A DNA stretch of 64,000 nucleotides from Thiomicrospira sp. XS5 (GTDB lineage: Bacteria; Pseudomonadota; Gammaproteobacteria; Thiomicrospirales; Thiomicrospiraceae), in NCBI RefSeq assembly GCF_001507555.1, contig NZ_LQBO01000001.1, positions 1,054,001 through 1,118,000 on the forward strand. Reading direction: 5' to 3'. Below are positions 509 to 62,492 of this stretch, piece by piece. The translations under genes were made by a program, and so were the position numbers. A model generated the notes under the pieces. That model saw nothing but the letters and a program-made list of their open reading frames with translations, had not been told where the DNA came from and did not search any database. The first letter of the stretch is position 1; the number at the start of each line of letters is the position of its first letter.

Positions 509-1468
509 GTGAAAGTACTGATGTTTGTTTTGACCGGGTTGGTGAGCTGGCAAGCTCACGCTCTGCAGGTAACGGTCACCATTCCACCGCTGGCGGCCAT
601 GGTGAAACCCTATTTATCCGGGGATGATACCTTGACCGTTCTATTGTCGCCGGGGGCGTCACCGCACGGTTTTCAATTTCGTCCATCGCATTTAACTGCC
701 TTGAATGAAGCGGATTTGATTTTAACGGTCGGCTCCGGTGTGGATCGCTGGGCGGATAAACCGATTCGACAAATCATGGCCGAAAAAGAGACTTCTTCCG
801 GTGAAACCCTACCGGTGTGGGTGGTGATGCAAAAACAACCAGGCCTGGTTGTTTTGCCGAAACGGGCGACGACGGGGTCGGCTCATTCGGCCTCGCATGA
901 TCATGAACATCACGAAGATGAGGCTGAAACTGAAACAAGCGGTGAATCGGTGGCGCCACTTAAAATGGATGGTCACACCTGGTTGTCGGTGCATAACGCC
1001 GGTTTAATGATTGAAGCCATTGGCGTGGCCATGGCTTCCTTAAAGCCGGAAGCCACTGAACAAATACGGGCTCAGCAACAGGCTAACCTGGCGGATATCA
1101 TGGCCGCCGATCAAACCATTCGAGCGCAATTGGAGCCGGTGGAAGAGGTGCCTTACTTGGTATTGCACGATGCGTTTCAGTATTTTGAAAAACGCTATCA
1201 CTTGAATAACCAAGGTGCAATTCAGGTGTCGGCGGAGGTGAAGCCGAGTGTGAAGCGGGTGTTGATGTTACGTCAACGCATTGAGCAGGATGGTATTCGC
1301 TGTGTGTTCAAAGAGCCGCAGTTTTCGGATAAGCAACTGCGTTACATTACGCGTGGTCTGGATGTCAAAATCGGTGAGCTGGACCCGTTGGGACGCAATC
1401 AATCACATCAATCCTACCCGGAATTTATTCAAGGTCTGGCGGCGCAATACCGAGCCTGTTTGGAGTGA
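509..1468 (+). CDS. znuA: Periplasmic zinc-binding protein of ZnuABC transporter
   Basis: The product is 319 aa, the usual size for ZnuA/TroA-family (cluster A-I) binding proteins. It starts at GTG 509, preceded by AAGGAG at 498-503, and opens with a signal peptide (MKVLMFVLTGLVSWQAHA). Conserved metal-site context is visible: SPHGFQFRPS with the first His ligand (about residue 53), DGHTWLS (about 154) and VLHDAFQYF (about 218). A His/Asp/Glu-rich loop (HSASHDHEHHEDE, about 125-137) is the ZnuA hallmark and argues for zinc rather than manganese. It delivers Zn2+ to the ZnuB permease. The loop is preceded by a QPGLV segment encoded by one copy of the iterated CCAGGCCTGG palindrome. Confidence 0.93.
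   Translation: MKVLMFVLTGLVSWQAHALQVTVTIPPLAAMVKPYLSGDDTLTVLLSPGASPHGFQFRPSHLTALNEADLILTVGSGVDRWADKPIRQIMAEKETSSGETLPVWVVMQKQPGLVVLPKRATTGSAHSASHDHEHHEDEAETETSGESVAPLKMDGHTWLSVHNAGLMIEAIGVAMASLKPEATEQIRAQQQANLADIMAADQTIRAQLEPVEEVPYLVLHDAFQYFEKRYHLNNQGAIQVSAEVKPSVKRVLMLRQRIEQDGIRCVFKEPQFSDKQLRYITRGLDVKIGELDPLGRNQSHQSYPEFIQGLAAQYRACLE
837..850. repeat. First copy of highly iterated palindrome CAGGCCTG
   Basis: This copy is extended to a 14-bp perfect palindrome, AACCAGGCCTGGTT. The 8-mer CAGGCCTG starts at 840, 1667, 1757, 7652, 10015, 17121, 17287, 17503, 19007, 21087, 23398, 23813, 25411, 31237, 38937, 39977, 44136, 46671, 48986, 50808, 52200, 56098, 60652 and 61930. That is 24 copies where about one is expected for a palindromic 8-mer in 64 kb. 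Twelve copies are the full CCAGGCCTGG. Most lie inside genes on either strand and are read as PGL/AGL or QAW/QAC. The function is unknown; see the findings. Confidence 0.9.
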
Positions 1469-1474
1469 TTTTGG

Positions 1475-2182
1475 ATGACGGACGCTATTCGGTTGATTGG
1501 TTTGCCAGGCAGTGGCAAAACCCGTTTTAAAAATGCGTTTCAAGCGGCTTTCCCCGAGGCTCTCATTGAAGAGGTGTCGACGGAAGACGCGCTGATACCG
1601 ACGTCACAGGCACAGCGTACTTGGTGTTTGATCGATGCTCGTCATCTGGTCGGCGATGATGAGGCGCAGGCCTGGTTAAAAGCCATGTTGCAAACGGCCA
1701 CCGGGGTGGTGTTCAGCTTTATGGACGCCGCCGATATGACGGTGCAGTCCCAATGGCAGGCCTGGCTAAAATCGGCTTTGCCACAGCCTTTGCCACGCTA
1801 TCGCTGGTTCAGTCATGCAGCATTGGGCGATTGGAACTGGCATGAATTTGATACGCCGGCGATCATTCCGTCAGTGGATTATTCGGCACCATCTCTGGAA
1901 AGCCTTTGTTTTGAATTTGATGGTGAGAGCCGTGCCTTAAATCTCGAACACCTCTTGTTTGGTTTGGATACGATGAAGCAGAATCTTGGCGCGCGGCTAT
2001 GGCGGGTGCAGGGGGTTGTGATGACGTCGGAGTATCAAAACCCGGTCGCCCTCGAAGGGCAAATCGATCGGTGGGATACTTATGCCGGCGAATTGAATGG
2101 TCCGGGCTATATCTGCATGCAAGGCCAAACCTTACAGCGTGATTTGCTACAAGAAATTATCGACGCCAGTGGCTTGTCCTAA
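1475..2182 (+). CDS. Shortened G3E/COG0523 (CobW-like) P-loop protein, zinc-locus linked
   Basis: The product is 235 aa. It begins with a P-loop (IRLIGLPGSGKT, about residues 5-16) and continues into a segment like the COG0523 Walker B strand (CLIDARHL, about 50-57). Its C-terminal half (LWRVQGVVMTSE, then VALEGQIDRW) resembles the CobW C-terminal domain. Typical members are over 300 aa and carry a CxCC metal motif, an ExSG motif and an NKxD guanine motif. None of these is present here; FSFMDAADM sits where NKxDL should be. About 90 residues between Walker A and B appear to be missing. It lies 6 bp after znuA, fitting a role in zinc handling. Whether it binds GTP or metal cannot be told; the family assignment is moderate. 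Confidence 0.6.
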   Translation: MTDAIRLIGLPGSGKTRFKNAFQAAFPEALIEEVSTEDALIPTSQAQRTWCLIDARHLVGDDEAQAWLKAMLQTATGVVFSFMDAADMTVQSQWQAWLKSALPQPLPRYRWFSHAALGDWNWHEFDTPAIIPSVDYSAPSLESLCFEFDGESRALNLEHLLFGLDTMKQNLGARLWRVQGVVMTSEYQNPVALEGQIDRWDTYAGELNGPGYICMQGQTLQRDLLQEIIDASGLS

Positions 2183-2274
2183 GCGGTGGAAATGGAGCGA
2201 ATTCGATTAAGGAAAAAATCGTATAAACGCTTTATAACCAGCGCTTTTCATCGATTTTAGAACGAAACAATCGC

Positions 2275-7347: not shown

Positions 7348-7689
7348 ATGAGCCCGTCAGACGAGTTGAACACAACTTCGGAACCGCTTCATTGGATTCG
7401 CTTGGAATTGGTCCCGTTGCCCGATTCCAATCACAGTGAAAAAACATTGTTTTGGAACCCGAGTACCGAGTCTCTATTGGGGGATGGTGCCGATGAAGTG
7501 CTGTCCTTAGTGGAGGAGGCGACCCAAGCCGGGCACTTGAACGGCGCCACTCTGTCTCACTTCGAAATTACCCAACCACTCAGTAAACCCTCCGAACTCG
7601 CCGCGATTCTCACCCAACATTACTGGGTGGTGCCGGAGCCTGTAAAAGAACCAGGCCTGGCAAATACTGAAACGGAATTGCTGCATTGA
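7348..7689 (+). CDS. Hypothetical protein between sufS and murC
   Basis: This 113-aa protein is not recognised. ATG 7348 is preferred because GAGTGAG lies 7 bp upstream; an in-frame GTG at 7336 would add four residues. It is acidic, has no cysteine from ATG 7348, no signal peptide and no membrane segment, so it is not a SufU, SufE or ferredoxin. It begins with a Trp-containing segment (LHWIRLELVPLP) and ends with YWVVPEPVKEPGL, where PGL comes from a CCAGGCCTGG copy. Position suggests co-transcription with suf, but I cannot assign a function. Confidence 0.55.
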   Translation: MSPSDELNTTSEPLHWIRLELVPLPDSNHSEKTLFWNPSTESLLGDGADEVLSLVEEATQAGHLNGATLSHFEITQPLSKPSELAAILTQHYWVVPEPVKEPGLANTETELLH

Positions 7690-9184: not shown

Positions 9185-9207
9185 TGCGCAACAAAGAGAT
9201 GGAAAGC

Positions 9208-10146
9208 ATGCAAGAATCTTGGAACAGAACCGATTTGAATGATGCCCTGGGGCGGGTCGCGGTCTTGATGGGCGGAACCGCTGCCGAACGTGATATTTCG
9301 TTGAAGAGCGGGACCGAAGTGACCAAGGCCTTGCAGCAAACCGGTGTAAATGCCACAGCCTGTGATGTGAAAAGTGTCCAGGACGTGTTGGCGGTCACCG
9401 AGCAGTACGATCGGGCTTTTATTGCGTTGCATGGGCGTTGGGGTGAAGACGGCGGTGTTCAAGCCTTGCTGGATGCGTTGGATTTTCCGTACACCGGCAG
9501 TCAAATGACGGCGTCGGCCCTGGCGATGGATAAGTTGCGCACCAAATGGTTATGGCAGGGCGTCGGTTTGCCAACGCCCGGCTTTCAAGTCGTGTCGCCG
9601 TCTCAACCCTTTGATAAAAGTGCATTCGAATTGCGCTTTCCGGTTATTGTGAAACCGAGTCATGAGGGTTCCAGTATCGGTATGCGGAAAGTCGACGATT
9701 TGGATGCGTTGGAAGAGGCCATTGCGTTTGCACAGGATTACGATACGGAAATTTTAATTGAGCAATGGGTGACCGGTCGGGAATACACCTGCGCCGTGTT
9801 GGGCGATTCCGCCTTGCCGATGATTCACTTGAAAACCGATCACGATTTTTACGATTTTGATGCCAAATACCAATCTTCGAGTACCCAATATATTTGCCCT
9901 TGTGGCTTGCCAGTCGAACAGGAAGCGGATATTCAAGCGTTGGTGGTGGAGGCGTTTCATGCCATTGGCGCACGGCACTGGGGGCGAGTGGATTTGATGT
10001 TGGATGAAAACGACCAGGCCTGGCTGATTGAGCTGAACAGCGTGCCTGGAATGACGGACCACAGCCTGGTGCCCATGGCGGCAAAGGCGGCAGGGATTGA
10101 CTTTCCGGAACTGGTGCGTCGCATTCTGTCGATGACCCTCGCGTAA
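9208..10146 (+). CDS. ddl: D-alanine--D-alanine ligase
   Basis: This ATP-grasp ligase makes D-Ala-D-Ala for peptidoglycan. It shows GRVAVLMGGTAAERDISLKSG near the N-terminus, ALHGRWGEDG, PVIVKPSHEGSSIGMRKV (ATP binding) and LIELNSVPGMTDHSLVPMAA (Mg and substrate). I place the start at ATG 9208 (312 aa, close to DdlB length), with AAAGAG at 9193-9198 as ribosome site. In-frame starts also exist at 9163, 9184 (overlapping the murC stop as TAATG) and 9199. The gene contains one CCAGGCCTGG copy at 10014, read as DQAWLIE. Confidence 0.93.
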   Translation: MQESWNRTDLNDALGRVAVLMGGTAAERDISLKSGTEVTKALQQTGVNATACDVKSVQDVLAVTEQYDRAFIALHGRWGEDGGVQALLDALDFPYTGSQMTASALAMDKLRTKWLWQGVGLPTPGFQVVSPSQPFDKSAFELRFPVIVKPSHEGSSIGMRKVDDLDALEEAIAFAQDYDTEILIEQWVTGREYTCAVLGDSALPMIHLKTDHDFYDFDAKYQSSSTQYICPCGLPVEQEADIQALVVEAFHAIGARHWGRVDLMLDENDQAWLIELNSVPGMTDHSLVPMAAKAAGIDFPELVRRILSMTLA

Positions 10147-16526: not shown

Positions 16527-17735
16527 ATGTCGCAACAACGTTTGATTCATCCGGTGGCGGGAGTGTACTTGGGCGCCACTCAAGCGAAAATTAAAAAAGC
16601 CGACAAAACCGATTTTGTCGTGGTGTCTTTTGTTGAAGGAAGTCGCACGGCGGCGACCTTTACGCAAAACGCTTTCTGTGCCGCGCCGGTGACAGTCGCT
16701 AAGGCGCATTTGCAGGCGACCGCCTGCCAAGCCCTTGTGATTAATAGCGGCAACGCGAATGCCGGAACCGGTCAGCAAGGACTGAAGGACGCCACGCAAA
16801 CCTGCGAATGGGTGGCCAGTGAGTTAGGTTTGCCAACGGAAGCGGTATTGCCGTTCTCCACCGGTGTGATCGGTCAGAATCTGCCGATGGATAAAATTGA
16901 AACCGCCGTTCCGGATGCGATCGCCAATCAAGCGATTGATGGTTGGGATATGGCGGCGAAAGGCATTATGACCACCGATACCTGTGAAAAAATCGTCAGT
17001 CGTCAAATCGATATTGATGGGGCGTTGGTGACGGTGACCGGGATTTCCAAAGGTTCCGGCATGATTCACCCGAACATGGCAACCATGCTTGGCTTTGCGG
17101 CGACGGATGCCAAAATTTCCCAGGCCTGCCTGCAACAAGCACTCAGCGATGCCGTGAATGTCTCCTTTAACCGTATCACGGTGGATGGCGATACCTCCAC
17201 CAATGATGCTTGTACGTTGACGGCGACGCAACAGGCGGCGATGCCTGAAATCACCGAGACAAATTCGTCCGCCTATCAAGCCTTTGCAGGCCTGGTCAAA
17301 GAGGTCATGACCGAATTGGCGCAAATGATTATCCGCGACGGCGAAGGTGCAACCAAGTTCGTCACGGTGCAGGTGGAGGGCGGTCAAGATTCGGACGAAT
17401 GCTTAAAGGTGGCGCATGCCGTGGCCTTATCGCCATTGGTGAAGACCGCGTTGTTCGCGTCCGACCCGAACTGGGGGCGGATTCTCGCCGCGGTCGGCCG
17501 GGCAGGCCTGGTCGATTTGGATATCGACGCTTTGCAGATTTATCTGGGAGAGGTCTTGCTGGTGGAAAACGGCGGACGTGCCGATTCTTACACTGAAGAA
17601 GCCGGTCAAGCGGTGATGGATGAAACCGACATTTTAATTCGCATTGTTTTGAACCGGGGTGAGGCGATGGAAATTGTTTGGACCACTGACTTTTCATACG
17701 ACTATGTGAAAATCAATGCAGAGTATCGAACGTAA
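16527..17735 (+). CDS. argJ: Bifunctional ornithine acetyltransferase / N-acetylglutamate synthase
   Basis: The product is 402 aa from ATG 16527 (GGAGAAAG at 16514-16521; an upstream in-frame TTG is ignored). ArgJ transfers acetyl from N-acetylornithine to glutamate. The autoprocessing site is visible as KGSGMIHPNMATMLGF with the nucleophilic Thr near residue 187, and NSGNANAGTGQQG is the family N-terminal motif. The protein self-cleaves into alpha and beta chains. A separate N-acetylglutamate synthase (argA) is at 24465, so ArgJ may mainly recycle acetyl groups. Three CAGGCCTG copies fall within this gene (17121, 17287, 17503), the densest cluster in the window. Confidence 0.95.
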   Translation: MSQQRLIHPVAGVYLGATQAKIKKADKTDFVVVSFVEGSRTAATFTQNAFCAAPVTVAKAHLQATACQALVINSGNANAGTGQQGLKDATQTCEWVASELGLPTEAVLPFSTGVIGQNLPMDKIETAVPDAIANQAIDGWDMAAKGIMTTDTCEKIVSRQIDIDGALVTVTGISKGSGMIHPNMATMLGFAATDAKISQACLQQALSDAVNVSFNRITVDGDTSTNDACTLTATQQAAMPEITETNSSAYQAFAGLVKEVMTELAQMIIRDGEGATKFVTVQVEGGQDSDECLKVAHAVALSPLVKTALFASDPNWGRILAAVGRAGLVDLDIDALQIYLGEVLLVENGGRADSYTEEAGQAVMDETDILIRIVLNRGEAMEIVWTTDFSYDYVKINAEYRT

Positions 17736-18918: not shown

Positions 18919-19073
18919 GGCGTGTTTCCGTTTGATTTTTTTGAATTGATTAATGTTGGCTATTTTAACGTTTATCGATTATGGCTTCATGAAAAATGAA
19001 TACTTTCAGGCCTGGCCGTTTTTTGCCAAAATAGAAGCATTCGAACCAAGGTTTCATAAAGGAAAAGACACGA

Positions 19074-20633: not shown

Positions 20634-21224
20634 TTAATTGTGATCTTCGAGTAAGGTTTGCAGGGTTTGCTTGATGCGTTCAAGCGGTTGGTCGGTGCGG
20701 ATAACATGGTCGGCAATGGCTAAGCGCGCCTCTCGTGAAGCCTGGTTTTCCATCAGGCGTCGAATGTCCGCCTCGGGCAGGGTGTCGCGTTGTAATGCAC
20801 GTTGCAACTGCATGGCTTCCGGCAAATCCAGTACGATGGTTTCGTCAATGTAATCGGGTTTTCCGGTTTCGGCCAGCAGTGGGATTTCCACTACTATGGC
20901 CGGAGGATTTTGCCGACGAAGCTGTTCAATGGCTGTTTGAGTGCGTTCGCGAATCAACGGATGCAGAATGGCTTCCAGCTTGTGCTTGGCGTCTGGATCT
21001 TCGAGTATGCGTTGCCGTAACGCGGCGCGATTCAGTTCGCCCTGTTCCGTCAAAATATCGGAACCGAACGCTTGCACGATTTTGACCAGGCCTGGCTGAT
21101 TGGGCGCCACCAGCTCTCTTCCGATGGCATCGGCATCCAAGGTCGGAATGCCGAGTGCTTCAATGAGTTGTCGGATGGTGGTTTTACCACTGCCGATGCC
21201 GCCGGTGAGTCCGTATACTTTCAT
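20634..21224 (-). CDS. coaE: Dephospho-CoA kinase
   Basis: The product is 196 aa from ATG 21224. A longer frame reaching 21311 is rejected because the family begins with MKVYGLTGGIGSGKTT, whose P-loop GGIGSGKT is at residues 8-15. CoaE phosphorylates dephospho-CoA in the last step of CoA synthesis. LDADAIGRELV (about 33-43) and the lid region (QLQRALQRDTLPEADIRRLMENQASREARLAIADHVI) are conserved. In many relatives coaE follows pilD; no pilus gene is nearby here. NQPGLV near residue 47 is encoded by a CCAGGCCTGG copy. Confidence 0.93.
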   Translation of the reverse strand: MKVYGLTGGIGSGKTTIRQLIEALGIPTLDADAIGRELVAPNQPGLVKIVQAFGSDILTEQGELNRAALRQRILEDPDAKHKLEAILHPLIRERTQTAIEQLRRQNPPAIVVEIPLLAETGKPDYIDETIVLDLPEAMQLQRALQRDTLPEADIRRLMENQASREARLAIADHVIRTDQPLERIKQTLQTLLEDHN

Positions 21225-39968: not shown

Positions 39969-39992
39969 AAAACGGCCAGGCCTGGCCGTTTT
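39969..39992. terminator. 24-bp perfectly palindromic bidirectional terminator
   Basis: Four A, then CGGCCAGG and its exact complement, then four T. It lies between convergent rimI and suhB. Like the terminator at 23802, it is built around a CCAGGCCTGG copy. Confidence 0.8.
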
Positions 39993-44065: not shown

Positions 44066-45199
44066 ATGACTCAAACGGATTTGCAAGCAACGGAACAGGT
44101 CGATCATAAAACCGACTTGCTGGGCATGGACATGGCAGGCCTGGCGGAATTCTTCACTCAGATTGGGGAGAAGCCGTTTCGTGCTGCGCAGGTGATGAAA
44201 TGGATTCATCAGTTCGGTGTCAGTGATTTCGATGAGATGACCAACCTCAGCAAAGCCTTGCGCGAAAAGCTGAAACAAAAAGCCGTGATCCGTACCCCGA
44301 AAATCGTTTCCGAACAACGCTCGGAGGATGGCACTATCAAGTGGTTGCTGGAAGTGGATAACCACAATAGTGTGGAAACCGTCTTCATTCCGGAAAAAAC
44401 ACGCGGTACCTTGTGTATCTCTTCCCAGGTGGGCTGTGCGTTGGAATGCAGTTTCTGTTCCACCGGTCAGCAAGGCTTTAACCGTAACCTGGAAAACTGG
44501 GAAATCATCGCGCAGATGTGGGTTGCCAATAAGGCGCTAGGGTGCAAGCCGAAAGAAGAGCGTGTTATTTCCAATGTCGTGTTTATGGGAATGGGGGAGC
44601 CGTTATTAAATGTAACGCACACCTTTCCGACCGCGCGCATTCTGATGGACGACAATGCTTATGGTTTGTCGAAGCGTCGCGTGACCATCAGTACGGCTGG
44701 GGTGGTACCGGCCATCGATAAAATTAAATCGTCTGTCGATGTCAGCTTGGCCATTTCATTGCATGCACCGAATAATGCGTTGCGGGATGAGTTGGTACCG
44801 ATTAACCAAAAATACCCATTGGAAGTGTTGATGCCCGCTTTGCACCGTTTTGTGGAAGGCGGCCACAGTAAAAAACATGTGACGGTTGAGTATGTGATGT
44901 TGGATCAGGTCAATGACCGCCCGGAACACGCGCGTCAGTTGATTGAATTGTTGGGCGACCTACCCTGTAAAGTGAACCTGATTCCGTTTAACCCTTTCCC
45001 GAATGCACCTTATAAGCGTTCTTCCAATAATGCGGTACACCGTTTTCAAGACGCCTTGATGAAAGCCGGCGTTAATTGTACGGTACGACGTACACGCGGG
45101 GATGACATTGATGCCGCCTGTGGCCAGTTGGCCGGGAAAGTGAAGGATCGTACCAAACGTACTTTGCAAACCGTTAATTTGGATAGATTACATGGCTAG
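44066..45199 (+). CDS. rlmN: Dual-specificity 23S rRNA/tRNA methyltransferase RlmN
   Basis: The product is 377 aa. It is a radical SAM enzyme methylating C2 of A2503 in 23S rRNA and A37 of some tRNAs. The cluster motif is CxxxCxxC ([19 protein letters not shown], about residues 125-143), with GMGEPLLN and the second catalytic Cys in a C-terminal context ([21 protein letters not shown]). It overlaps the next gene by 8 bp. One CAGGCCTG copy (44136) is read as MAGLAE. Confidence 0.95.
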
Positions 45200-45649: not shown

Positions 45650-46921
45650 ATGTCAAAACAAATTACGGCTATTCGCGGCATGAACGACTTATACGGCGAA
45701 CAGGCGGAAGCGTTTGATTATCTGGTCAATACGGCGCAATCGGTTCTGAATCAATATGGCTTTTCATCCATTCGACTGCCGTTGGTTGAAAAGACCGAGC
45801 TGTTCGCGCGCTCCATCGGGGAAGTCACCGACATCGTCGAAAAAGAAATGTACACGTTCGACGACCGCAATGGCGATAGCTTGACCTTGCGCCCGGAAGG
45901 CACGGCCGGTTGTGTTCGCGCCGTGATTCAAAATGGTTTAGCACACAACCAGGTTCAAAAACTGTATTACACTGGGCCGATGTTCCGCTACGAGCGTCCG
46001 CAAAAAGGCCGTTACCGCCAGTTTCACCAATTTGGTGTGGAAGTCTTCGGACTGGATTCGGTGGATATTGATGCCGAACTCATTGTCTTGTCGGCCCGTC
46101 TTTGGGAACGGCTCGGGCTGGAAAATCTGGAGCTGCAAATCAACTCTTTGGGCAGCCAAGAAGCGCGTCAAGCCTATCGCGATTTGCTGGTTGAGTATTT
46201 ACAAGCGCACAAGTCGGAATTGGATGAAGACAGTTTGCGTCGCTTAGATACCAATCCATTGCGGATTTTGGACACCAAAAATCCCGATATGAAAGCCGTG
46301 GTCGATGGGGCACCGAAATTGATCGATCATCTCGATGCCGAATCAAAACAACATTACGATGAGCTGAAAGTCTATTTGGACGATGTGGGGATTCCGTATA
46401 CGGAAAACCCGAACTTGGTTCGTGGTTTGGATTACTATAACCGCACCGTCTTTGAGTGGGTGACCACGGAACTGGGCGCTCAGGGAACCGTTTGTGCCGG
46501 TGGCCGCTACGATGGTTTGGTGGAACAAATCGGCGGTAAGCCGACACCGGCGGTTGGCTTCGCCATGGGCATTGAACGCCTGATGGCGTTGCTGATTGAC
46601 AAAGCGTTGGTTGATCACAGCGCGGCACCGGATGTGTATTTGGTGCTGGCCGGTGAAGCGGCCAAACGCCCAGGCCTGGTGATTTCCGAGCAAATTCGTG
46701 ATTATCTGCCTGAATTGACAGTTCAGATGAACTGCGGGGGCGGCAGCTTCAAGAGTCAGTTCAAGAAAGCCGATAAATCCGGCGCGCGTGTGGCGCTGGT
46801 GTTGGGTGAAGACGAAGTGCAACAGCAGAAAATCGCCGTGAAATATTTGCGAGAAGATCGCGAGCAAGCGTTGATGGATTGGTCAGACTTATTGACCCAT
46901 TTGTCCGATGTCTTTCAATAA
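45650..46921 (+). CDS. hisS: Histidyl-tRNA synthetase
   Basis: The product is 423 aa, a class II synthetase. Motif 1 (about residues 45-60), motif 2 ([26 protein letters not shown], about 106-131) and motif 3 ([13 protein letters not shown], about 305-317) are intact, and the HisA-type signature [14 protein letters not shown] is visible. The anticodon-binding domain fills the C-terminus ([17 protein letters not shown] onward). RPGLV near residue 342 is encoded by a CCAGGCCTGG copy. Confidence 0.96.
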
Positions 46922-48886: not shown

Positions 48887-50325
48887 GTAAAACGGTCATT
48901 GCGCTGGTTGGGCGCCCGAATGTCGGAAAATCGACCCTATTCAATCGTTTAACGCGTTCACGCGATGCGATTGTCGCCGACTACCCAGGCCTGACCCGAG
49001 ATCGGCAGTACGGCACGGGCCGTGTCGGCTCTAAGCCGTATATCGTGGTCGATACCGGTGGTTTGAGCGGTGAACAAGAAGGCGTCGATCCATTGATGGC
49101 CGGGCAAGTTCAGGCGGCGATTTCCGAAGCGGATGCTGTATTGTTTTTGGTCGACGGCCGTTCCGGTTTGATCCCCGCTGATGAAACCATTGCCGGTTAC
49201 ATTCGTCACTTCGATAAACCGGTTTATCTTCTGGTAAATAAAGCCGAAGGCCATGACAAAATGATGATGGCCAGCGACTTCTATCAGATGGGGTTGGGGG
49301 ACCCTTATGTGATTTCGTCGGCTCACGGCGATAATGTCAATGAAGTCATGGAAACTATCTTGGCGGACGTCGGGCATGACGAAGAAGACGAAGATGAACT
49401 GGATCTGGATAAGCATCCCGGTATTCGTGTTGCGGTCATCGGACGCCCGAATGTAGGCAAGTCCACGCTCATTAATCGCATGATCGGCGAAGAACGCGTG
49501 GTCGCGTTCGACATGCCGGGTACCACGCGCGACAGTATCTATGTGCCGTTTGAGCGGGCCGGACAGCTCTATACTCTCATTGACACGGCCGGGGTGCGTC
49601 GCCGTAAGAACATCAAAGAAAAAATCGAAAAATTCAGTATTGTCAAAGCCATCGAGGCCATGGAATCTTCCAATGTCGTGGTTTTGGTGATTGACGGTTC
49701 CGAAGGCATTACCGATCAGGATTTAACCTTGTTGGGGTTGGCGCTGGAATCGGGTCGCGGTTTGATTCTCGCCATTAATAAATGGGATAACCTATCGCAA
49801 GACCAACGTGATAAGATTAAGCACGAATTGGAATACAAATTGCATTTTGTCGATTATGCCAAAAAGCATTTAATTTCCGCTTTGCACGGCACGGGCGTCG
49901 GCGATTTGTTCAAGACCATTGGCGCCGTTTACAGTGCCGCGATGAAGCAGGTGTCGACCTCGGATCTGAACCGTGTGCTGACGCAAGCGGTGCTGGACCA
50001 CCAGCCACCATTGATTGGCGGTCGTCGTGTGAAGTTGCGCTACGCCCACTTGGGTGGCTTGAACCCGCCGCGTGTGATTATTCACGGAACACAAGTCGAT
50101 AAACTGCCGCAAGCTTATACCAAATATTTAATGAACGTGTTCCGCAAAGCGTTCAAGTGGGTGGGCACGCCGGTGATGATCGAATACAAAGTGACAGCCA
50201 ATCCCTACGAGAACCGTAAGTCTAACTTCACTTACCGTCGTGGCAAGTCGGAATCTCAGGCGGAGAATGCTTATTTGAAACGTAAAAAGAAGAAAAAGCC
50301 ACAGCAGAAACGGCGTACCAATTGA
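48883..50325 (+). CDS. der: Ribosome-associated GTPase Der (EngA)
   Basis: The product is 480 aa with the two tandem GTPase domains unique to Der: G1 at GRPNVGKSTLFNRL (about residues 9-22) and again at GRPNVGKSTLINRM (about 187-200), with DTGG/DTAG switch motifs and NKAE/NKWD specificity motifs. A KH-like domain and basic tail (YLKRKKKKKPQQKRRTN) follow. It is needed for 50S subunit assembly. It starts at GTG 48883 inside the end of bamB. Confidence 0.96.
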   Translation: MSKTVIALVGRPNVGKSTLFNRLTRSRDAIVADYPGLTRDRQYGTGRVGSKPYIVVDTGGLSGEQEGVDPLMAGQVQAAISEADAVLFLVDGRSGLIPADETIAGYIRHFDKPVYLLVNKAEGHDKMMMASDFYQMGLGDPYVISSAHGDNVNEVMETILADVGHDEEDEDELDLDKHPGIRVAVIGRPNVGKSTLINRMIGEERVVAFDMPGTTRDSIYVPFERAGQLYTLIDTAGVRRRKNIKEKIEKFSIVKAIEAMESSNVVVLVIDGSEGITDQDLTLLGLALESGRGLILAINKWDNLSQDQRDKIKHELEYKLHFVDYAKKHLISALHGTGVGDLFKTIGAVYSAAMKQVSTSDLNRVLTQAVLDHQPPLIGGRRVKLRYAHLGGLNPPRVIIHGTQVDKLPQAYTKYLMNVFRKAFKWVGTPVMIEYKVTANPYENRKSNFTYRRGKSESQAENAYLKRKKKKKPQQKRRTN

Positions 50326-50395: not shown

Positions 50396-53197
50396 TTAGG
50401 CTCGGTTGCACACCGCTTGGTGGAAGATTTCTGCCGGGTGCAACGCGTGTTTCTCCGCGAAGTCTTCCAACTGGTGGCGACAGCTGGTGCCGGTGGCAAT
50501 CACCAAATCGTCGTCTTGCGATTTTTCCAAGGTCGGCAATAGGGTTTGATTGGCGATTTTCAACGAGACGTCGTAATTCTTATAACCAAATTCCCCAGAC
50601 ATGCCGCAACAACCGGAGTTGATGTATTGAATCTGCAGCTCCGGAATCAGGTTCAAGGCTTTCACGGCTTCCTGAGCTTGTGCCAGGGATTTTTGATGGC
50701 AATGCACGTGCAACCAGGCGGTACGCGGCACTGGGCCGAGATTCAAGTCCATTTGCGCGTGGAGCTTTAACATTAACTCCTCAAACAATAACACCGACGA
50801 AAACGCCCAGGCCTGGTTGTTTTGGTCAATCAAGTCTTTGGCTTCGTCGCGCCAGACCAAGGTGTCAGAGGGTTCAATGCCGACGATGTAATCGGATTCG
50901 GCCACATCTTTTAATTGCTGTTGAATGTCGGTCAATGCCTGTTTGGCTTCCTTGAGCAGGCCTTGGCTGAGCAACGCACGCGGCGATGATTTTAAAAACA
51001 CCGGTTTGACGTTAAAGCCCAGCTTTTGAAGCGTTTGGATGGCGGCTTGGCCGATTTTGGGTTCCTGATACTGGATGTATAGGTCTGCCAGCACCCAAAT
51101 GGTGTGATGGGTGTTTTGCGGTGCTTCAGGGGCCATTTTCGAATGTTGCTTCCACCAAGCCGGCAACGACTGTTTTTCCAGCGTTGGTAGAGTGCGGCGC
51201 ACATCGACGCCCATGACTTTTTTCACTAGGGACCGATTTTGTGTCCAGTTATAGATGGCTGGGAAAATCGCGCCCAGACGCATGAGTTCACCGTAGAATT
51301 TAATCGACAGTTTGCTCAAGGAAAAGCGATTGATTTGATACAGCACTTCCGATTTCAAACGCGCCATGTCGACACTCGCCGGGCATTCGGTTTTACAGGC
51401 TTTACAGCCCAGGCACAAGGATAGGGCGTCTTGCAGCTCGTCCTGGTTCAAGGCTTTGACCGGGTTTGGCTCGGTCAGGGCGTGGCGCAATAAGTTGCTG
51501 CGGCCGCGTGTGGAATAATTTTCTTCACGAGTTGCTTGGTAAGACGGGCACATGGTGCCGCTGCCAGCGGATTTGCGGCAAGCGCCAGCCCCGTTGCATT
51601 TTTCCACGGCATCCATCAACGACAGGTCTTTTGACCAATCGTAACCTGGACTGAGCAATTGTTTGGGTTGGCGGTTGGCGCGCAAGTTGGCGGTAATCGG
51701 CGCATCGCCGATAATCACGCCTGGATTGAACAGGTTTTCCGGATCAAATGCCCGCTTGAGTTGCACCAGATAGCTGTAGACCGCTTCGCCGACTTGTTCT
51801 TTGATGAAAGGCGCGCGGATACGGCCGTCGCCGTGTTCGCCGGAAATTGCACCGCGGTATTTTTTAACCAGTTGTGAACTGCGCTCGGCCACCGTCTGGA
51901 AGGTACGACGACCTTCTTCTGTGGCCAGGTCCATCTCCGGGCGGACGTGAATCAAACCGACCGAGGCATGACCGTAGTAGACGCAGCCGATGCCCAGTTC
52001 GCTCATCAGCTGTTGCGTGTCTTGATAAAAATCCGGTAAGGCTTTGACGGGGATGGCGGCATCTTCAATCACCGCAACGGCTTTCTGACGCGTCGGTTTC
52101 CCCATCAAAAGGCCCAAGCCGGCTTTGCGCAGGTTCCAGACTTTGCCGCTGTCTTGCGGTTCGATAACCGGGCAGGCATAGGCGCCTTGCGCCAGCATCC
52201 AGGCCTGGCCACTTTTTAGGCGTTCTTGTAAGCGCTCGGCGTCTTCATCAAATAGTTCCACCACCAGAACTGCTTCGGGGTCTTCTTTCACCCAAAAACG
52301 GTTGTGGGTTTGTTCGACATTGTTTTTGGTGCCGTCCAGGGTGGCTTTGTCGATGATTTCAATCGCCGCCGGGTCGTATTGCAGGTATTCCGGTACGGCT
52401 TTCATGGCGGTGGACACCGAATCGAAATGGGCGCAAAACAGTTGGCGGTGCGTCGGCAAATCCACTAGGTTCAACGTGGCTTGGGTAATCACGCCCAAGG
52501 TGCCTTCGCTGCCGCAAATCAACGGTGTTAGGTTGAACGGTTTGCCGTCCGGATTGAAGGGCTGATAATCGGTGTAAAGTACGTCCAGGGCATAGCCGGT
52601 GGTGCGGCGCACAATCGACGGGTCGGGGAAGTGTTCGACGATTTCCGGACCGTGCTTTTCCAGCAGGTCGATGACCGTGCGGTAAATTTCGCCTTCCAGT
52701 GTTTGCAGGTTCAGTTTGTCGTGCAGTTGTTCGGCGCTCAAGTCGTCGAAACGTACCTGTGAGCCGTCGGCGAGAATCATTTCCACGGCTTTGACGTGAT
52801 CGCGGGTGGTGCCGTAATACACCGAGTAGGAGCCGCAGGAGTTGTTGCCGATCATGCCGCCGATCATGGCGCGATTAGATGTAGAGGTATCCGGTGCGAA
52901 ACGCAGGTTATCCTGTTTGACAAAGGCATTCAGGTCATCCTGAATGACACCGGGTTCGACGTCGACTTCTTTTTGCTCCGGGCGATAGTCCAGGATGCGG
53001 GTTAGGTGTTTGGAAATATCGACCAATAAGCCGGAACCGATGGCTTGCCCGCCCAATGAGGTGCCCCCGGCACGCATGGTGATGGGTTGCTTTTTTTGCA
53101 AGGCTGCCTGAATGCGTTGGCGAAGGGCATCGGTATCCGTCGGATAGATAAACTCTTCGGGAAAAATTTCAAAAACGGAAGCATCAGTCGAAATCAT
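50396..53197 (-). CDS. FAD/Fe-S D-2-hydroxyacid dehydrogenase, YdiJ-like
   Basis: The product is 933 aa. The N-terminal half is a PCMH-type FAD domain (MRAGGTSLGGQAIGSGLLVDIS, about residues 41-62; GGMIGNNSCGSYSVYYGTTRDHV, about 113-135) with a FAD-oxidase C-terminal domain containing GEHGDGRIRAPF. It is fused to a Fe-S part with CLGCKACKTECP (about 596-607) and cysteine-rich CCG repeats (HVHCHQKS, SGCCGMSGEFGY). This is the GlcD-GlcF/YdiJ architecture. YdiJ-type enzymes oxidise D-2-hydroxyglutarate. The neighbour serA supports that substrate, but D-lactate or glycolate cannot be excluded. Confidence 0.85.
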   Translation of the reverse strand: MISTDASVFEIFPEEFIYPTDTDALRQRIQAALQKKQPITMRAGGTSLGGQAIGSGLLVDISKHLTRILDYRPEQKEVDVEPGVIQDDLNAFVKQDNLRFAPDTSTSNRAMIGGMIGNNSCGSYSVYYGTTRDHVKAVEMILADGSQVRFDDLSAEQLHDKLNLQTLEGEIYRTVIDLLEKHGPEIVEHFPDPSIVRRTTGYALDVLYTDYQPFNPDGKPFNLTPLICGSEGTLGVITQATLNLVDLPTHRQLFCAHFDSVSTAMKAVPEYLQYDPAAIEIIDKATLDGTKNNVEQTHNRFWVKEDPEAVLVVELFDEDAERLQERLKSGQAWMLAQGAYACPVIEPQDSGKVWNLRKAGLGLLMGKPTRQKAVAVIEDAAIPVKALPDFYQDTQQLMSELGIGCVYYGHASVGLIHVRPEMDLATEEGRRTFQTVAERSSQLVKKYRGAISGEHGDGRIRAPFIKEQVGEAVYSYLVQLKRAFDPENLFNPGVIIGDAPITANLRANRQPKQLLSPGYDWSKDLSLMDAVEKCNGAGACRKSAGSGTMCPSYQATREENYSTRGRSNLLRHALTEPNPVKALNQDELQDALSLCLGCKACKTECPASVDMARLKSEVLYQINRFSLSKLSIKFYGELMRLGAIFPAIYNWTQNRSLVKKVMGVDVRRTLPTLEKQSLPAWWKQHSKMAPEAPQNTHHTIWVLADLYIQYQEPKIGQAAIQTLQKLGFNVKPVFLKSSPRALLSQGLLKEAKQALTDIQQQLKDVAESDYIVGIEPSDTLVWRDEAKDLIDQNNQAWAFSSVLLFEELMLKLHAQMDLNLGPVPRTAWLHVHCHQKSLAQAQEAVKALNLIPELQIQYINSGCCGMSGEFGYKNYDVSLKIANQTLLPTLEKSQDDDLVIATGTSCRHQLEDFAEKHALHPAEIFHQAVCNRA

Positions 53198-56055: not shown

Positions 56056-57675
56056 CTAGCGTTTTTCGGTATGTGCCCGCAAGACTTCAATAATGACCAG
56101 GCCTGCCAGGCCGATGCCCATTAACACCAAGGCCGGTAATGCGGCCGCTTCATATAAGCCTTCCGTACTGAGTTCAAAGGTCCGCACCGCCAAAGTATCC
56201 CATCCGAACGGGCGTAATAAGTAGGTCGCCGGTAATTCTTTCAAAATGTCCAAGGTTACTAAGAATAAAGCCGTTAATAGGCCGGGCGTCAGTAGCGGCC
56301 AATAGATACGTTTGACCAGTTCAAAAGGCGTGGCGCCGAGGCTTCTGGCGGCTTCACTGATGGACGGTTTGATGGTTTTAAAGCTGCTTTCCACCGGGCC
56401 GAAGGCCACCGCCATAAAGCGCACCATGTAAGCGATAATAAGCGCAAAGAGTCCGCTGCTGAACCATAAGGCGCCGTTAAACAGTTCGTCCACCTCAAAC
56501 AGGAACAGCATGACGCCCACCGCCAATACCGAACCGGGCAGGGCGTAGCCGAGGGTGGTGAAACGGATTCCGAACCGTTGCAGTTGGTTAAGAGGTTGAT
56601 TGTGGATAATGGCATTGAGTGTGAGTGCAATCAGTACGGTTAGGAGAGCTGAAGACACCGCCAAGATTAAACTGTTTCCGATCCAGTCGGTAAGGCGCGG
56701 ATCCCATCCGGTAAAGGATTCCAGACTCCAGAGTGACAGTTGCACTAACGGAAGGCCAAAAGCCAATACCAGCACCCCGGACAGATACACCCAAGTGACC
56801 ACGGCTTTAAAGCCGGTTAAGTGGTAGCGCGTTTGTTCCCTGGGAAGGCCGCTGTGGAAGGCGCGTTTGCCACGCTGGTAATGTTCCAACGCAATCAGCG
56901 TAGCCGCGATGATGAGTAGCAAGGTCGACAGTTGAGCCGCGGTTTCCAGTGAGCGATAGTCTACCCAGCTGGAGTAAATGGCGGTGGTAAAGGTGTCGTA
57001 GTTAAAAATGGCGACGGTACCGAAATCGGCCAGCACTTCCATTAGGGCAAGCGACAAACCCGCGATGATGGCGGGGCGTGCCAGCGGTAACGACACTCGT
57101 AAGAAAGCGCGAAAGGGCGAGTCGCCGAGGTTGCGGGCCGCCTCGGTATAGCTGGGGGGTTGGGCGAGAAACGCGCTGCGTGCCAGGAGGTATACGTAGG
57201 GGTAAAACACCAGGCTCATGATCATGGCGACGCCCCAGACGCCTTCGCGGATATCGATACCGCCTTGTAGTTGGAAGGTGTTGCGGAAGAGAGACTGTAC
57301 CGGGCCGGCATAATCGAACAGGCCTAAAAAGACAAATGCCAGCACGTAGGCCGGTACGGCAAACGGTAAAAACAGCAACCATTCAAACCAGCGTCTGCCG
57401 GGGAATTCGCAGCGAGTGACCAGCCAGGCCAAGCTGATGCCCAGCAGGCCGGTGCCGATGGCCACACCCAATAACAGTTGGAAAGTGTTTCCAAGTAATT
57501 CGAACAACAGGTTGTCCGAAAGATGTTGCCAAAGCCCTTCGTCAATGCTGTGCCAGGAAAATCCGAGGCTGAGAATGGGGAGAGAAATGAGCAGGATTAA
57601 GGCCCAAAGCGCCAGCTTGGAAAAGAGGGTAAAGGGTTTCAAAGGTGGCCTTTTGGTATTTATCATTGGGTTCAT
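56056..57675 (-). CDS. fbpB: Fe(III) ABC transporter permease
   Basis: The product is 539 aa with about 12 hydrophobic segments and two permease halves, each with an EAA-type loop (YTEAARNLGDSPFRAFLRVSLPLARPAI, about residues 177-204; ISEAARSLGATPFELVKRIYWPLLTPGLL, about 437-465). That is the FbpB/SfuB fused form. It carries Fe3+ through the inner membrane. It is the last gene in an unusual order fbpC-fbpA-fbpB, with a terminator between fbpA and fbpB. LAGLVI near the C-terminus is encoded by a CAGGCCTG copy. Confidence 0.92.
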   Translation of the reverse strand: MNPMINTKRPPLKPFTLFSKLALWALILLISLPILSLGFSWHSIDEGLWQHLSDNLLFELLGNTFQLLLGVAIGTGLLGISLAWLVTRCEFPGRRWFEWLLFLPFAVPAYVLAFVFLGLFDYAGPVQSLFRNTFQLQGGIDIREGVWGVAMIMSLVFYPYVYLLARSAFLAQPPSYTEAARNLGDSPFRAFLRVSLPLARPAIIAGLSLALMEVLADFGTVAIFNYDTFTTAIYSSWVDYRSLETAAQLSTLLLIIAATLIALEHYQRGKRAFHSGLPREQTRYHLTGFKAVVTWVYLSGVLVLAFGLPLVQLSLWSLESFTGWDPRLTDWIGNSLILAVSSALLTVLIALTLNAIIHNQPLNQLQRFGIRFTTLGYALPGSVLAVGVMLFLFEVDELFNGALWFSSGLFALIIAYMVRFMAVAFGPVESSFKTIKPSISEAARSLGATPFELVKRIYWPLLTPGLLTALFLVTLDILKELPATYLLRPFGWDTLAVRTFELSTEGLYEAAALPALVLMGIGLAGLVIIEVLRAHTEKR

Positions 57676-59745: not shown

Positions 59746-60771
59746 TCAGTGCGTTTCGGTGGCGAACTCTTCGCGTAATCGTTGGAAGCTTTGGTAGCGG
59801 GAATAGTGCAGTTCGCCATCTTCAACCGCTTGGCGGATGGCGCAGTTGGGTTCGGTGGTGTGGGTGCAATTATTGAATTTGCACTGGCCTAGAAAGGGCG
59901 CGAAATCCGGGTAAGCGGCTTCCAGTTCGTGCAGTTCACACGGCGTGGGGCTGAACTGACGCACGCCGGGTGAGTCGATAATGTTACCGGCGCGACCGGG
60001 GTGAACATCGTTTTCCACCGGTAAATGGTACAAAATACTGTTGGTGGTCGTGTGCTTGCCTAAGCCGGTGGATTCCGACAGTTCGCTGGTTTTGATGTCG
60101 ATATCGGGAATCAGGGCTTTAATGAGTGAGGATTTCCCAGCGCCCGATGGACCGACAAACACACTGTTTTTGCCGGTTAAAAGCGCTCTTAACTCGTCAA
60201 TGCCGTCGCCGCTTTCGGCGGATACCGGCAAAATGTCGAGTTCCAGCTCATCGTAAGGAATTAATAATTCGGCAATGGCTTCCCAGTGTTCCTCGGAGGC
60301 CATCAGGTCGATTTTATTGATTAATATCAGCACCGGTAATTGCATTTGATGTGCGGTGACCAGATAACGGTCAATCATATCGGGATGGACGCCGGGTTCG
60401 ATGGGCGCGACAATGCCCAAGAGGTCGATGTTGGCCGCCACCATGCGCTTTTGACCGCGAAAACCGGGACGGCTGAGTTCTTGATGGCGCGGATCGGTGG
60501 CGATGACCACGCCGGTGTTGGGTTCCCGATCGGCTTGCCAAGTAACGGTGTCGCCGGCCACCAGCTTGCCTAGGTGTTGGCGTACGGCACAATTATAAAG
60601 TTGGCCGTCTTCGGACTCCACCAACAGGCGTTTGCCAAAGTTGGTAATGACCAGGCCTGGCTGTTTTTCACCCAGCTGGGAGTCGCCGACGGCTTCCGTG
60701 GCGGTGCGCTCCTGATGTTGCTTTTGCTTCACCCGGCGCTGTTGTTGTTGATTGAGTTTGCGTTTTGCCAC
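59746..60771 (-). CDS. rsgA: Small ribosomal subunit biogenesis GTPase RsgA
   Basis: The product is 341 aa. It is a circularly permuted GTPase: G4 (LILINKIDL, about residues 149-157) comes before G1 (VFVGPSGAGKSSLIKAL, about 204-220) and G3 (IIDSPGVRQF). A zinc motif follows (GQCKFNNCTHTTEPNC), with an OB fold near the N-terminus. It checks 30S maturation. In E. coli it is next to orn; here a pterin dehydratase and an M48 protease separate them. KQPGLV near residue 38 carries a CCAGGCCTGG copy. Confidence 0.95.
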   Translation of the reverse strand: MAKRKLNQQQQRRVKQKQHQERTATEAVGDSQLGEKQPGLVITNFGKRLLVESEDGQLYNCAVRQHLGKLVAGDTVTWQADREPNTGVVIATDPRHQELSRPGFRGQKRMVAANIDLLGIVAPIEPGVHPDMIDRYLVTAHQMQLPVLILINKIDLMASEEHWEAIAELLIPYDELELDILPVSAESGDGIDELRALLTGKNSVFVGPSGAGKSSLIKALIPDIDIKTSELSESTGLGKHTTTNSILYHLPVENDVHPGRAGNIIDSPGVRQFSPTPCELHELEAAYPDFAPFLGQCKFNNCTHTTEPNCAIRQAVEDGELHYSRYQSFQRLREEFATETH

Positions 60772-60796
60772 GAAGGTTTCTTTGGTTGGAGGTGGG

Positions 60797-61138
60797 TTAA
60801 GCCAGCAAAGCGTCGATTTTGGCCGCCAGAATAAAATCGTTTTGACTCAGTCCTTTGATATTGTGGGTGGTCAGAGTGATTTTGCATTGATTATACCCAA
60901 AGCAAATCTCAGGGTGGTGGTCTTCTTTGTGTGCTACCCAGGTGACGGCGTTCACAAACGCTACGGTTTGGTGGTAGTTTTTGAAGGCATACGTTTTGGT
61001 CAAGGTTTGGTAGTCCAACGGCACATCCCAGCCCGGCATTTGTGAGAGATAGCTCTCAATGGTGGGGATGATGAGTGGCTTGCTGCCTTTTTCAATCTCG
61101 GTGCAGGATTGGTCTTTCAGTGGCAATTCGTGTGTCAT
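60797..61138 (-). CDS. phhB: Pterin-4a-carbinolamine dehydratase
   Basis: The product is 113 aa. It has the family pattern SYLSQMPGWDVPLDYQTLTKTYAFKNYHQTVAFVNAVTWVAHKEDHHPEICFGYNQCKITLTTHNIKGLSQNDF, of which EDHHP (about residues 72-76) and the later TTH form the active site. It regenerates quinonoid dihydropterin after aromatic hydroxylation. No phenylalanine hydroxylase is nearby; in many bacteria the enzyme occurs alone and may serve molybdopterin or other roles. It is 25 bp before rsgA on the same strand. Confidence 0.92.
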   Translation of the reverse strand: MTHELPLKDQSCTEIEKGSKPLIIPTIESYLSQMPGWDVPLDYQTLTKTYAFKNYHQTVAFVNAVTWVAHKEDHHPEICFGYNQCKITLTTHNIKGLSQNDFILAAKIDALLA

Positions 61139-61208
61139 AAACTACGGTTCCTGTGTTTGATCTCGTTAATAACGTTGCGCTTGCCCGCTTTCAATAGGGG
61201 CTGGCACT

Positions 61209-62492
61209 TTATTTTTCAAGCGACTTTAAATGGTCGATGCGGATTTTCGCCGGTGGATGACTGTCGTGATACGCTGAATAAGTCGGATCCGGGGTCAGGC
61301 TGCTGGCATTGTCGCGATACATTTTCAGTAGCGCGGAAATCAACGGGGCCGAACCGGTGGTTTGTGATGCGAAGGCATCGGCTTCAAATTCGTGCTTGCG
61401 GCTTTTGAAGGCGGCAATCGGCCCGAAGAAAAAGAACATCACCGGAATGGCGGTCATAAACAGCAATAACGCGGCGGCCGGCGTTTCCGATGTCATGCCC
61501 AGGCCTTGGTAAAACGCCGGTAATTGCGTCAGCCAGCCCAGGACGAACAAGCCGGCAAAGCTCAAGGCAAAGGACTCGATCATGCGTTTTTTGATGTGGC
61601 CGTGTTTAAAGTGCCCCAGTTCATGTGCCAGCACCGCTTCGACCTCTTCCGGCGTCAGCGATTCCAGCAAGGTGTCGAAAAAGACGATGCGTTTGTTTTT
61701 GCCAAACCCGGTGAAATAAGCGTTGCCGTGACCAGAGCGCGAGGAACCGTCCATGACGAAAATGCCGTTGGATTCGAACCCAGTGCGTTCCAGCAGGGCT
61801 TCGATGCGCTGTTTCATTTCGCCGTCTTCCAGCGGGGTGAACTTGTTGAAAATCGGCGCAATCCATTTCGGATAAGCCCAAAGCAAAACAAGGTTGAACG
61901 CCACCCAAAGCACCCAGGTGTAAAACCACCAGGCCTGGTCGAAATAGGCATTCATAATCGACAACACGGCCCAAGCCAATGGCAGGCCGATCACCAAGCC
62001 AAGCAACCATTGTTTGACAAGGTCGGAAATGAATTTGCCGACGGTCATTTTATTAAAGCCGAAAGCCTCTTCGATTTTAAAGGTGGAGATGATGGCGAAC
62101 GGAATGTGCAGTAAGGACAAAAACCAGAAGGTCGACAATAAGTAACCGACATCGCGCCAGATTGGCGATAACTCCGTCGCGAGCCAGTAATTGTAAATTT
62201 CTTGAAACCCGCCGCCGAGCGTCATGAACAATAAGACGGCGGCGTCGAAAAATAAGACGAATCGTGAGAGTTGCAGTTTGGCGCGGCTGTAGTCGGCGGC
62301 TTTGTGGTGTGCTTCTTCGGTGACAACACTTTGGAAGTCTTCCGGCACTTGGTTGCGGTGGGTGCCGATGTGAAATTGGTTTTTGATGTTGAGCCACAGC
62401 TCGATGACCAGGTTAAGAATCAGGGTGGTTGCAAATAATACGGTAATCCAATTCATGGAAGCGGTGCCTTGTTTGGTTGTTTGTTCAGCCAC
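61209..62492 (-). CDS. Ste24/HtpX-like M48 membrane metalloprotease
   Basis: The product is up to 427 aa; ATG 62456 (MNWITVLF) is an equally plausible start. It has several hydrophobic segments and the zinc motif HELGH (EAVLAHELGHFKHGHIKKRM, about residue 290), with ESNGIFVMDGSSRSGHGNAYFTGFGKNKRIVFFDTLLESL before it and EFEADAFASQ as third ligand. This is the CAAX-protease-1/Ste24 type widespread in bacteria; there it is not a prenyl protease but probably a membrane quality-control enzyme. It is divergent from orn. FDQAWW carries a CCAGGCCTGG copy. Confidence 0.88.
   Translation of the reverse strand: MAEQTTKQGTASMNWITVLFATTLILNLVIELWLNIKNQFHIGTHRNQVPEDFQSVVTEEAHHKAADYSRAKLQLSRFVLFFDAAVLLFMTLGGGFQEIYNYWLATELSPIWRDVGYLLSTFWFLSLLHIPFAIISTFKIEEAFGFNKMTVGKFISDLVKQWLLGLVIGLPLAWAVLSIMNAYFDQAWWFYTWVLWVAFNLVLLWAYPKWIAPIFNKFTPLEDGEMKQRIEALLERTGFESNGIFVMDGSSRSGHGNAYFTGFGKNKRIVFFDTLLESLTPEEVEAVLAHELGHFKHGHIKKRMIESFALSFAGLFVLGWLTQLPAFYQGLGMTSETPAAALLLFMTAIPVMFFFFGPIAAFKSRKHEFEADAFASQTTGSAPLISALLKMYRDNASSLTPDPTYSAYHDSHPPAKIRIDHLKSLEK

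Follow-up and report, generated by a model that had tools for sequence, protein, structure and literature searches.

A highly iterated palindrome of Thiomicrospira sp. XS5 is probably a DNA uptake sequence with dialects among related genomes

An earlier note, made from the letters of the DNA alone, had described the octamer CAGGCCTG as a highly iterated palindrome in a 64-kb stretch of the Thiomicrospira sp. XS5 genome (the window, meaning the whole stretch analyzed: bases 1054001-1118000 of the main contig in a genome of 2.63 Mb that is 99.99% complete). We followed this element through the window, the rest of the genome, and related genomes. It is probably a DNA uptake sequence that comes in dialects, similar in kind to the DNA uptake sequence (DUS) of the Neisseriaceae and the uptake signal sequence (USS) of the Pasteurellaceae and found here in a third family; uptake and the receptor are what we infer by analogy.

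The window contains 24 copies of CAGGCCTG, exactly the number given in the earlier note against about one expected, and Markov models of orders 1 to 4 predict 0.6 to 2.0 copies (1.4 at order 3). The predictions of orders 5 and 6 are high (10.7 and 20.0, respectively) because those models already hold most of CAGGCCTG. The runner-up among palindromic octamers in the window has 7 copies. Twelve of the 24 sites extend to CCAGGCCTGG, and 24 of the 35 AGGCCT hexamers carry the C..G flanks; both figures had been noted before (the latter as two thirds of about 35) and both hold. Across the whole genome, there are 962 copies of CAGGCCTG, or about 0.37 per kb, versus 28 of the reversed word. A 464-kb sample, made up of the window and 20 stretches of 20 kb (in all, 409 kb of stretches was read in addition to the window), holds 206 copies versus 11.2 expected at order 3. 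Thirty-six of these are repeats of one clustered regularly interspaced short palindromic repeat (CRISPR) array, and once the array is removed and the background model is built with the motif masked, 169 copies remain versus 7.3 expected at the same order. Because at least 36 copies are CRISPR repeats, the number of free copies in the genome is about 925 or fewer. Nineteen of the 20 stretches hold 4 to 14 copies each, and the one with 43 contains the CRISPR array, which is also the source of 42 intervals shorter than 100 bp in the spacing of the motif and makes that spacing (coefficient of variation, 1.05) uninformative.

We then compared the octamer with the word classes to which it belongs. 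In the 464-kb sample, GGCC is seen 2649 times versus 2143 (order 1) and 3188 (order 2) expected, and CCAGG is seen 564.5 times per strand versus 353, 487, and 612 (orders 1 to 3). Relative to the loosest model, neither class exceeds expectation by more than 1.2- to 1.6-fold, versus about 18-fold for CAGGCCTG. The genome count against a Markov expectation had been set beforehand as the refuting test, and it places CAGGCCTG far above expectation, with an excess that is not common to CCAGG and GGCC. The earlier note had argued likewise from the window that the abundance of GGCC or AGGCCT alone does not account for the motif.

The motif extends beyond the octamer. Outer C..G bases are present at 77% of sites; farther out, A is favored to the left and T to the right. 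With CAGGCCTG as its core, the whole element spans about 24 bp and reads approximately AAAWYNR-CCAGGCCTGG-YNRWTTT. At 70% of the 111 genic sites in the sample, one flank has at least 3 of its 5 positions filled by A (left flank) or T (right flank), versus 22% of 2156 other genic GGCC sites judged in the same way; because the A-tract is found at genic sites too, it is not merely a terminator effect. The consensus consists of two inverted half-sites, each an A-tract, a few bases, and CCAGG.

Sites in the window are conserved beyond their surroundings, in answer to the comparison of orthologous sites for which the earlier note had asked. The nearest relative is G010, with 88.7% identity over the window; 22 of the 24 sites are intact there, and the reverse comparison also gives 22 of 24. 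By comparison, 8-mers of the same composition are intact in 463 of 1216 cases (38%; P = 6.6e-8 versus the motif), other GGCC 8-mers in 43% of 315, and flanking 8-mers in 10 to 15 of 24. At position 1667, the core is retained in G010 and the left flank is changed. In relatives at 72 to 74% identity, genomes that use the same word retain 10 of 26 aligned sites, versus 0 of 25 in genomes that use another word. In one case, a site has been swapped in place: the position in G003 that aligns with the 39977 site reads CCAGGCTGGG, which is G003's own word. A wider search for such swaps found no orthologous DNA in the 464-kb sample for 61 sites of G003, G004, and G008 or for 11 sites of G009.

Next, we surveyed 62 genomes of the order, all of them in one family. 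CAGGCCTG is present in 236 to 1173 copies in 32 genomes (high) and in 0 to 74 copies in the other 30 (low). One high genome (G031) has 1133 copies and a GC content of 39.5%. In genus g6, all 9 genomes are high (840 to 1128 copies), and two genera are mixed, including the window's own, in which 7 of 11 are high. Four genomes of genus g4 (G016 to G019) have 35 to 67 copies versus 7 to 31 of the reversed word, a weak excess that is perhaps a decaying or a starting system. A SecA tree covering 30 of the 62 genomes, built by a quick method with Shimodaira-Hasegawa-like approximate likelihood ratio support only, requires at least 5 changes between the high and low states.

Ten of the 30 low genomes gave a usable sample for an alternative-word search, made after masking of 22-mers that occur twice (G016 was also sampled but gave two short contigs only). 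Another enriched word was found in 6 of these 10. The word is CCAGGCTGGG in G003 and CCAGGTTGGG in G004 and G008, three genomes that form one clade within the window's own genus on the SecA tree. It is CCGGCCGG in G026 (47 copies in 100 kb, 44 after masking), ACAGGCCGGGT in G022, and CCAGGGGTGG in G009; the last is the weakest, with 11 copies in 66 kb and 7 of its 10-mer after masking. In whole genomes, CCAGGYTGGG is found 331 times in G003, 371 times in G004, and 403 times in G008, versus no more than 15 times in each of the other 59. There are therefore six word forms, of which those of the window's genome, G003, G004, G008, and G009 share CCAGG; the inner part is reduced to AGG/GGCC in G022 and to GGCC in G026. 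In the remaining 4 genomes (G029, G030, G042, and G051), no comparable word was found in 100-kb samples (87 kb for G042), and the system may have been lost there or the motif may be looser. Weak words in three of them are CAAGGCCAAG (7 copies, G029), CAGTCTGG (15 copies, G051), and CTGCCCAG (10 copies, G030).

The flanks also differ among dialects. In G003, G004, and G008, AAAATCT[A/G] precedes CCAGG, and the mean number of A residues on the CCAGG side is 3.8 to 3.9 of 5, versus 0.9 to 1.8 T residues of 5 on the far side. Because the A-tract is on the CCAGG side only in these genomes, the palindrome resembles two copies of a half-site and these dialects a one-sided version of it. The A-tract is not visible at the sites of G052, and therefore the flank varies among lineages.

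Relatives hold related but different words in similar numbers, with the old word lost, and for this reason some protein evidently reads the element. Because the HIP1 words (highly iterated palindromes) of cyanobacteria each have a matching methylase and the pattern fits DUS and USS (dialects with a common inner part, sites throughout genes, terminator-like repeats, and relatives without a word), an uptake sequence is the favored explanation. Among the precedents offered in the earlier note, the analogy to uptake sequences is now the best supported, by the excess across the genome, the conservation of the core in other species, the related words that take its place in relatives, the longer element with its A-tract, and the presence of sites in terminator-like hairpins; methylation with very-short-patch repair is weakened. 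We propose that the competence pilus includes a DNA-binding protein, most likely one of the minor pilins, that would prefer DNA with the element, so that self DNA would enter and recombine more often. Biased uptake and recombination would then keep copies intact and add others until their density reached about 0.37 per kb; that they maintain the sites is something we infer. In some relatives, the preference of the receptor may have shifted and the genome may have been rewritten to another word, a dialect, with the half-site of A-tract and then CCAGG kept in several of them. We hold more tentatively, as a fuller version that may or may not prove right, that this is a third, independently evolved system in which an ancestral palindrome of two abutting half-sites was read symmetrically by a competence receptor, at least one lineage shifted to one-sided words, and the dialects are barriers that hinder sister species from exchanging genes.

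Where the copies lie bears on whether codon or dipeptide bias, or terminator hairpins, could have produced the motif as a by-product, which we consider very improbable. In the window, 19 of 24 sites are genic and 5 are intergenic; 9 genic sites are read as QAW/QAC, 9 as PGL/AGL, and 1, at 38937, in the frame that requires an AGG codon, as the earlier note had found in placing about 20 copies in genes. In the 464-kb sample (gene calls by a custom script, densities computed by hand), 111 of 170 non-CRISPR copies are in predicted genes and 59 are outside, or about 0.29 per kb in about 382 kb of genes and about 0.72 per kb in about 82 kb of intergenic DNA. The QAW/QAC and PGL/AGL/SGL readings do dominate the genic frames, and stems that reach at least 7 bp beyond the core are found at 18 of the 59 intergenic copies, versus 2 of the 111 genic ones. 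However, two unrelated frames are heavily used and the third is used as well (59/41/11), most copies are genic, and order 3 composition predicts 7.3 copies. With three phases in use and intergenic DNA denser in sites, the conclusion of the earlier note that codon bias is not the cause is upheld. Terminators, for their part, require base pairing and not CAGGCCTG itself. A second possibility is that the words are bound, across the whole chromosome, by a protein of chromosome architecture, segregation, or recombination (as Chi, KOPS, or matS sites are) and that its specificity has drifted. Such a protein would account for sites that are spread across genes and intergenic DNA with 4 to 14 per 20 kb in 19 of 20 stretches and for a conserved core, and drift in any DNA-binding protein could give rise to dialects. 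Chi or KOPS sites are expected to show strand bias, yet the nonpalindromic words have none: 51 of 91 are on the G-rich strand (P = 0.29; 20-kb samples of modest power). Core proteins would also be expected to change specificity rarely, yet the state changes at least 5 times in 30 genomes, and 4 sampled genomes have no such motif. We therefore regard this possibility as unlikely, if still worth attention.

Methylation offers two further explanations, and we looked for it in two methylase families, PF00145 (C5 methylases) and PF01555 (other families were not searched). Neither has a match in the window's own genome. PF00145 is found in 24 of the 62 genomes (11 of 32 high and 13 of 30 low; Fisher P = 0.60) and PF01555 in 24 (13 of 32 high and 11 of 30 low; Fisher P = 0.80), counts that include matches below the curated cutoff for PF00145 in G032 and for PF01555 in G005, G015, and G056. 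Neither family is present in 13 of the 32 high genomes, the window's own and 12 others, and neither is associated with copy number. Dcm-, HaeIII-, or N4-type methylation was rejected as the cause on the grounds of these two families, and methylation is a weakly supported basis of the motif. The earlier note had suggested Dcm-type methylation at abutting CCWGG sites, with very-short-patch repair creating CCAGGCCTGG, and CCAGGCCTGG is indeed two abutting CCWGG sites. This suggestion did not survive, and we give it hardly any credence: besides the missing families in the window's genome, PF00145 is found in 0 of 9 genomes of genus g6 with its 840 to 1128 copies, the CCWGG class lacks a strong excess (CCAGG falls below its order 3 expectation), and of the 206 copies in the 464-kb sample, just 114 have the CCAGGCCTGG form. 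The other explanation follows Elhai's model of HIP1, in which an orphan DNA methylase reads the word and methylation-dependent repair makes and keeps the sites. Here the likeness is closer, in that CAGGCCTG is a dense, GC-rich, octameric palindrome and G026 swaps it for another GC-rich palindrome, CCGGCCGG, like the cyanobacterial alternate HIPs described in the available part of PMC4390886. Among its one-base variants, those of the first base are commonest (AAGGCCTG is at twice expectation), as the same text reports for HIP1, and the motif is in the genome's own CRISPR repeat, as HIP1-related methylated motifs are reported to be in a CRISPR repeat of Synechocystis in the part of PMC6604393 available. 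However, in PMC4390886, Elhai assigns a putative methylase to each of the highly overrepresented words in the cyanobacteria studied, and 13 high genomes here lack both families. Nonpalindromic dialects and an A-tract outside the core also ill suit a type II methylase site. An orphan methylase is thus an improbable but not a negligible source of the motif.

Several points weigh against an uptake sequence. A palindrome would be unusual as an uptake word, to judge by the known DUS and USS, and from the pattern of sites alone, an uptake receptor cannot be told apart from some other DNA-binding protein that acts chromosome-wide. The P value of 0.0007 for site retention in same-word versus other-word genomes is only a guide, since the test pools genomes and its cells are not independent, and its control words also differ threefold (158 of 2054, or 7.7%, versus 52 of 2020, or 2.6%). 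One-base variants of CAGGCCTG show no overall excess (164 seen versus 172.6 expected, with CATGCCTG nearly absent), and transformation drive might leave more half-decayed sites. ComEC (PF03772), part of the DNA-uptake machinery, speaks for uptake in being found in the window's genome and in 56 of the 62, but it is not discriminating: it is present in the motif-less G029, G030, G042, and G051, whereas G035 (82% complete), with 236 copies, lacks it. Finally, ComP_DUS (PF16732) is over the cutoff in 0 of 62 genomes, a result of unproven sensitivity because 14 control genomes were also without a match.

We examined candidates for a receptor of the presumed uptake sequence. ComP was rejected because of the absence of PF16732; its single match below the cutoff (E = 9.9e-4) is in a motif-less genome. 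The PF16732 criterion defines the Neisseriaceae form and not uptake words generally. GspH/FimT (PF12019) was rejected as well, with matches in 3 of 62 genomes, all of them low (G040, G042, and G051). The match in G051 sits among four prepilin genes. The window's genome has two clusters of prepilin genes, and the one that matches that of G051 has five (154, 201, 135, 225, and about 323 amino acids), which we read as probable type II secretion pseudopilins and rejected on that reading. One of the two clusters lies beside miaB and has a small prepilin gene (L296:5860-6465), which was found in 8 of 8 genomes whose cluster was read. Its product has a nearly invariant N terminus and a fast-changing C-terminal part (20 to 75% identical), in which identity peaks within a dialect (75% between G004 and G008 and 54% between G000 and G001), a pattern that the tree alone could explain. 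This small prepilin is a candidate only for the receptor. In the same cluster (L296:1445-6465), a response-regulator and a histidine kinase-like open reading frame are inserted before the small pilin gene and miaB.

The system can be set beside those already described. The DUS of the Neisseriaceae, in the available part of PMC3630211, has hundreds to thousands of copies per genome and several dialects with a shared inner CTG, and some members are without an abundant word. Likewise, the present words reach hundreds to thousands of copies, form dialects with a shared inner part (mostly CCAGG), and are missing from some relatives. In contrast to DUS, the commonest core here is palindromic, it has an A-tract flank, and no PF16732 match exceeds the cutoff in the 62 genomes; moreover, the receptor ComP and the effect on uptake have been tested experimentally for DUS, whereas the present system is known from sequence. 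The USS of the Pasteurellaceae has an AT-rich region beside its core and is not palindromic (PMC12616744, in part), and in Haemophilus influenzae, inverted pairs of USS are used in terminators (PMC5217627, in part). A GC-containing core beside AT-rich DNA and use in terminators (here, terminator-like repeats) are likenesses to the element studied here, which differs in that the word is unrelated and palindromic; the predicted receptor of USS is ComN/PpdA. With HIP1 and the alternate HIPs, the shared features are a palindromic octamer in great excess and other palindromes in some relatives (as in the available sections of PMC4390886); unlike HIPs, the word is not tracked by PF00145 or PF01555, and some of its replacements are nonpalindromic. 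As at Rho-independent terminators built from uptake sequences, copies between convergent genes fold strongly (23813 and 39977), but here one palindromic copy alone gives the stem instead of two inverted copies, and termination is a prediction.

Two of the five intergenic sites in the window form such structures. The site at 23813..23820 is the center of a terminator-like inverted repeat with convergent genes on either side; its RNA fold has an energy of -20.5 kcal/mol (z = -3.95), and in G001, both arms of the stem are changed with pairing retained. The site at 39977..39984, in the CCAGGCCTGG form, is in a hairpin-forming inverted repeat, also with convergent genes on either side (-16.4 kcal/mol; z = -1.84). 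A simple terminator scan lists neither of them, and at two other intergenic sites, RNA folding gave no hairpin on the motif. The remaining intergenic sites are 7652..7659 (CCAGGCCTGG form; between genes 6071-7285 and 7799-9184), 19007..19014 (between 17860-18918 on the minus strand and 19074-20024 on the plus strand; intact in G010 and G001), and 23398..23405 (between 21447-23264, plus, and 23852-24568, minus).

The genic sites of the window, which like the intergenic ones are given without strand, begin at 840..847 (CCAGGCCTGG form) in a ZnuA-like gene (509-1468, frame PGL; intact in G010). The gene at 1475-2182, without a Pfam match, has two in frame QAW: 1667..1674, intact in G010 with the diverged left flank, and 1757..1764. 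A D-Ala-D-Ala ligase-like gene (9163-10146) has 10015..10022 (CCAGGCCTGG form, QAW; intact in G010 and G007). Three are in an argJ-like gene (16512-17735): 17121..17128 (QAC; intact in G010, G001, G005, and G002), 17287..17294 (AGL; intact in G010), and 17503..17510 (AGL; intact in G010 and G007). On the minus strand, genes resembling coaE (20634-21311), an amino-acid kinase/acetyltransferase (24465-25757), and an M48 peptidase (30705-32120) have 21087..21094 (CCAGGCCTGG form, PGL; intact in G010, G001, and G002), 25411..25418 (QAC), and 31237..31244 (QAC), respectively. The site in the AGG-requiring frame (ARPG) is 38937..38944 (CCAGGCCTGG form), in gene 38875-39456. Sites altered in G010 are 44136..44143, in an RlmN-like gene (44066-45199, AGL), and 48986..48993, in an EngA/Der-like GTPase gene (48883-50325, PGL); between them is 46671..46678 (CCAGGCCTGG form), in a histidyl-tRNA synthetase-like gene (45650-46921, PGL). 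The last five are in minus-strand genes: 50808..50815 and 52200..52207 (both CCAGGCCTGG form and QAW) in an FAD-oxidase/4Fe-4S gene (50396-53197), 56098..56105 in a transport permease-like gene (56056-57675, AGL), 60652..60659 (CCAGGCCTGG form) in an RsgA-like gene (59746-60771, PGL), and 61930..61937 (CCAGGCCTGG form) in a second M48 peptidase-like gene (61209-62492, QAW). Outside the window, the CRISPR array whose 36 repeat copies carry CAGGCCTG is at L158:8963-11176 (contig 1, about 858963-861176) and adjoins genes for a Cas12a-like protein (Pfam RuvC_1, REC1, NUC, and PI), Cas1, and Cas2.

Uptake words have been documented in two bacterial families only, according to the available part of PMC12616744 (2025), and among the literature matches listed, none concerned CAGGCCTG or uptake words in this group, which does not establish their absence in print. 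This case speaks against a necessary link between highly iterated palindromes and DNA methylases. The map of word presence and word identity is a basis for testing receptor candidates. A third family with dialects within a genus, if true, would make it possible to test independently how such words originate, spread, and change and whether they isolate species.

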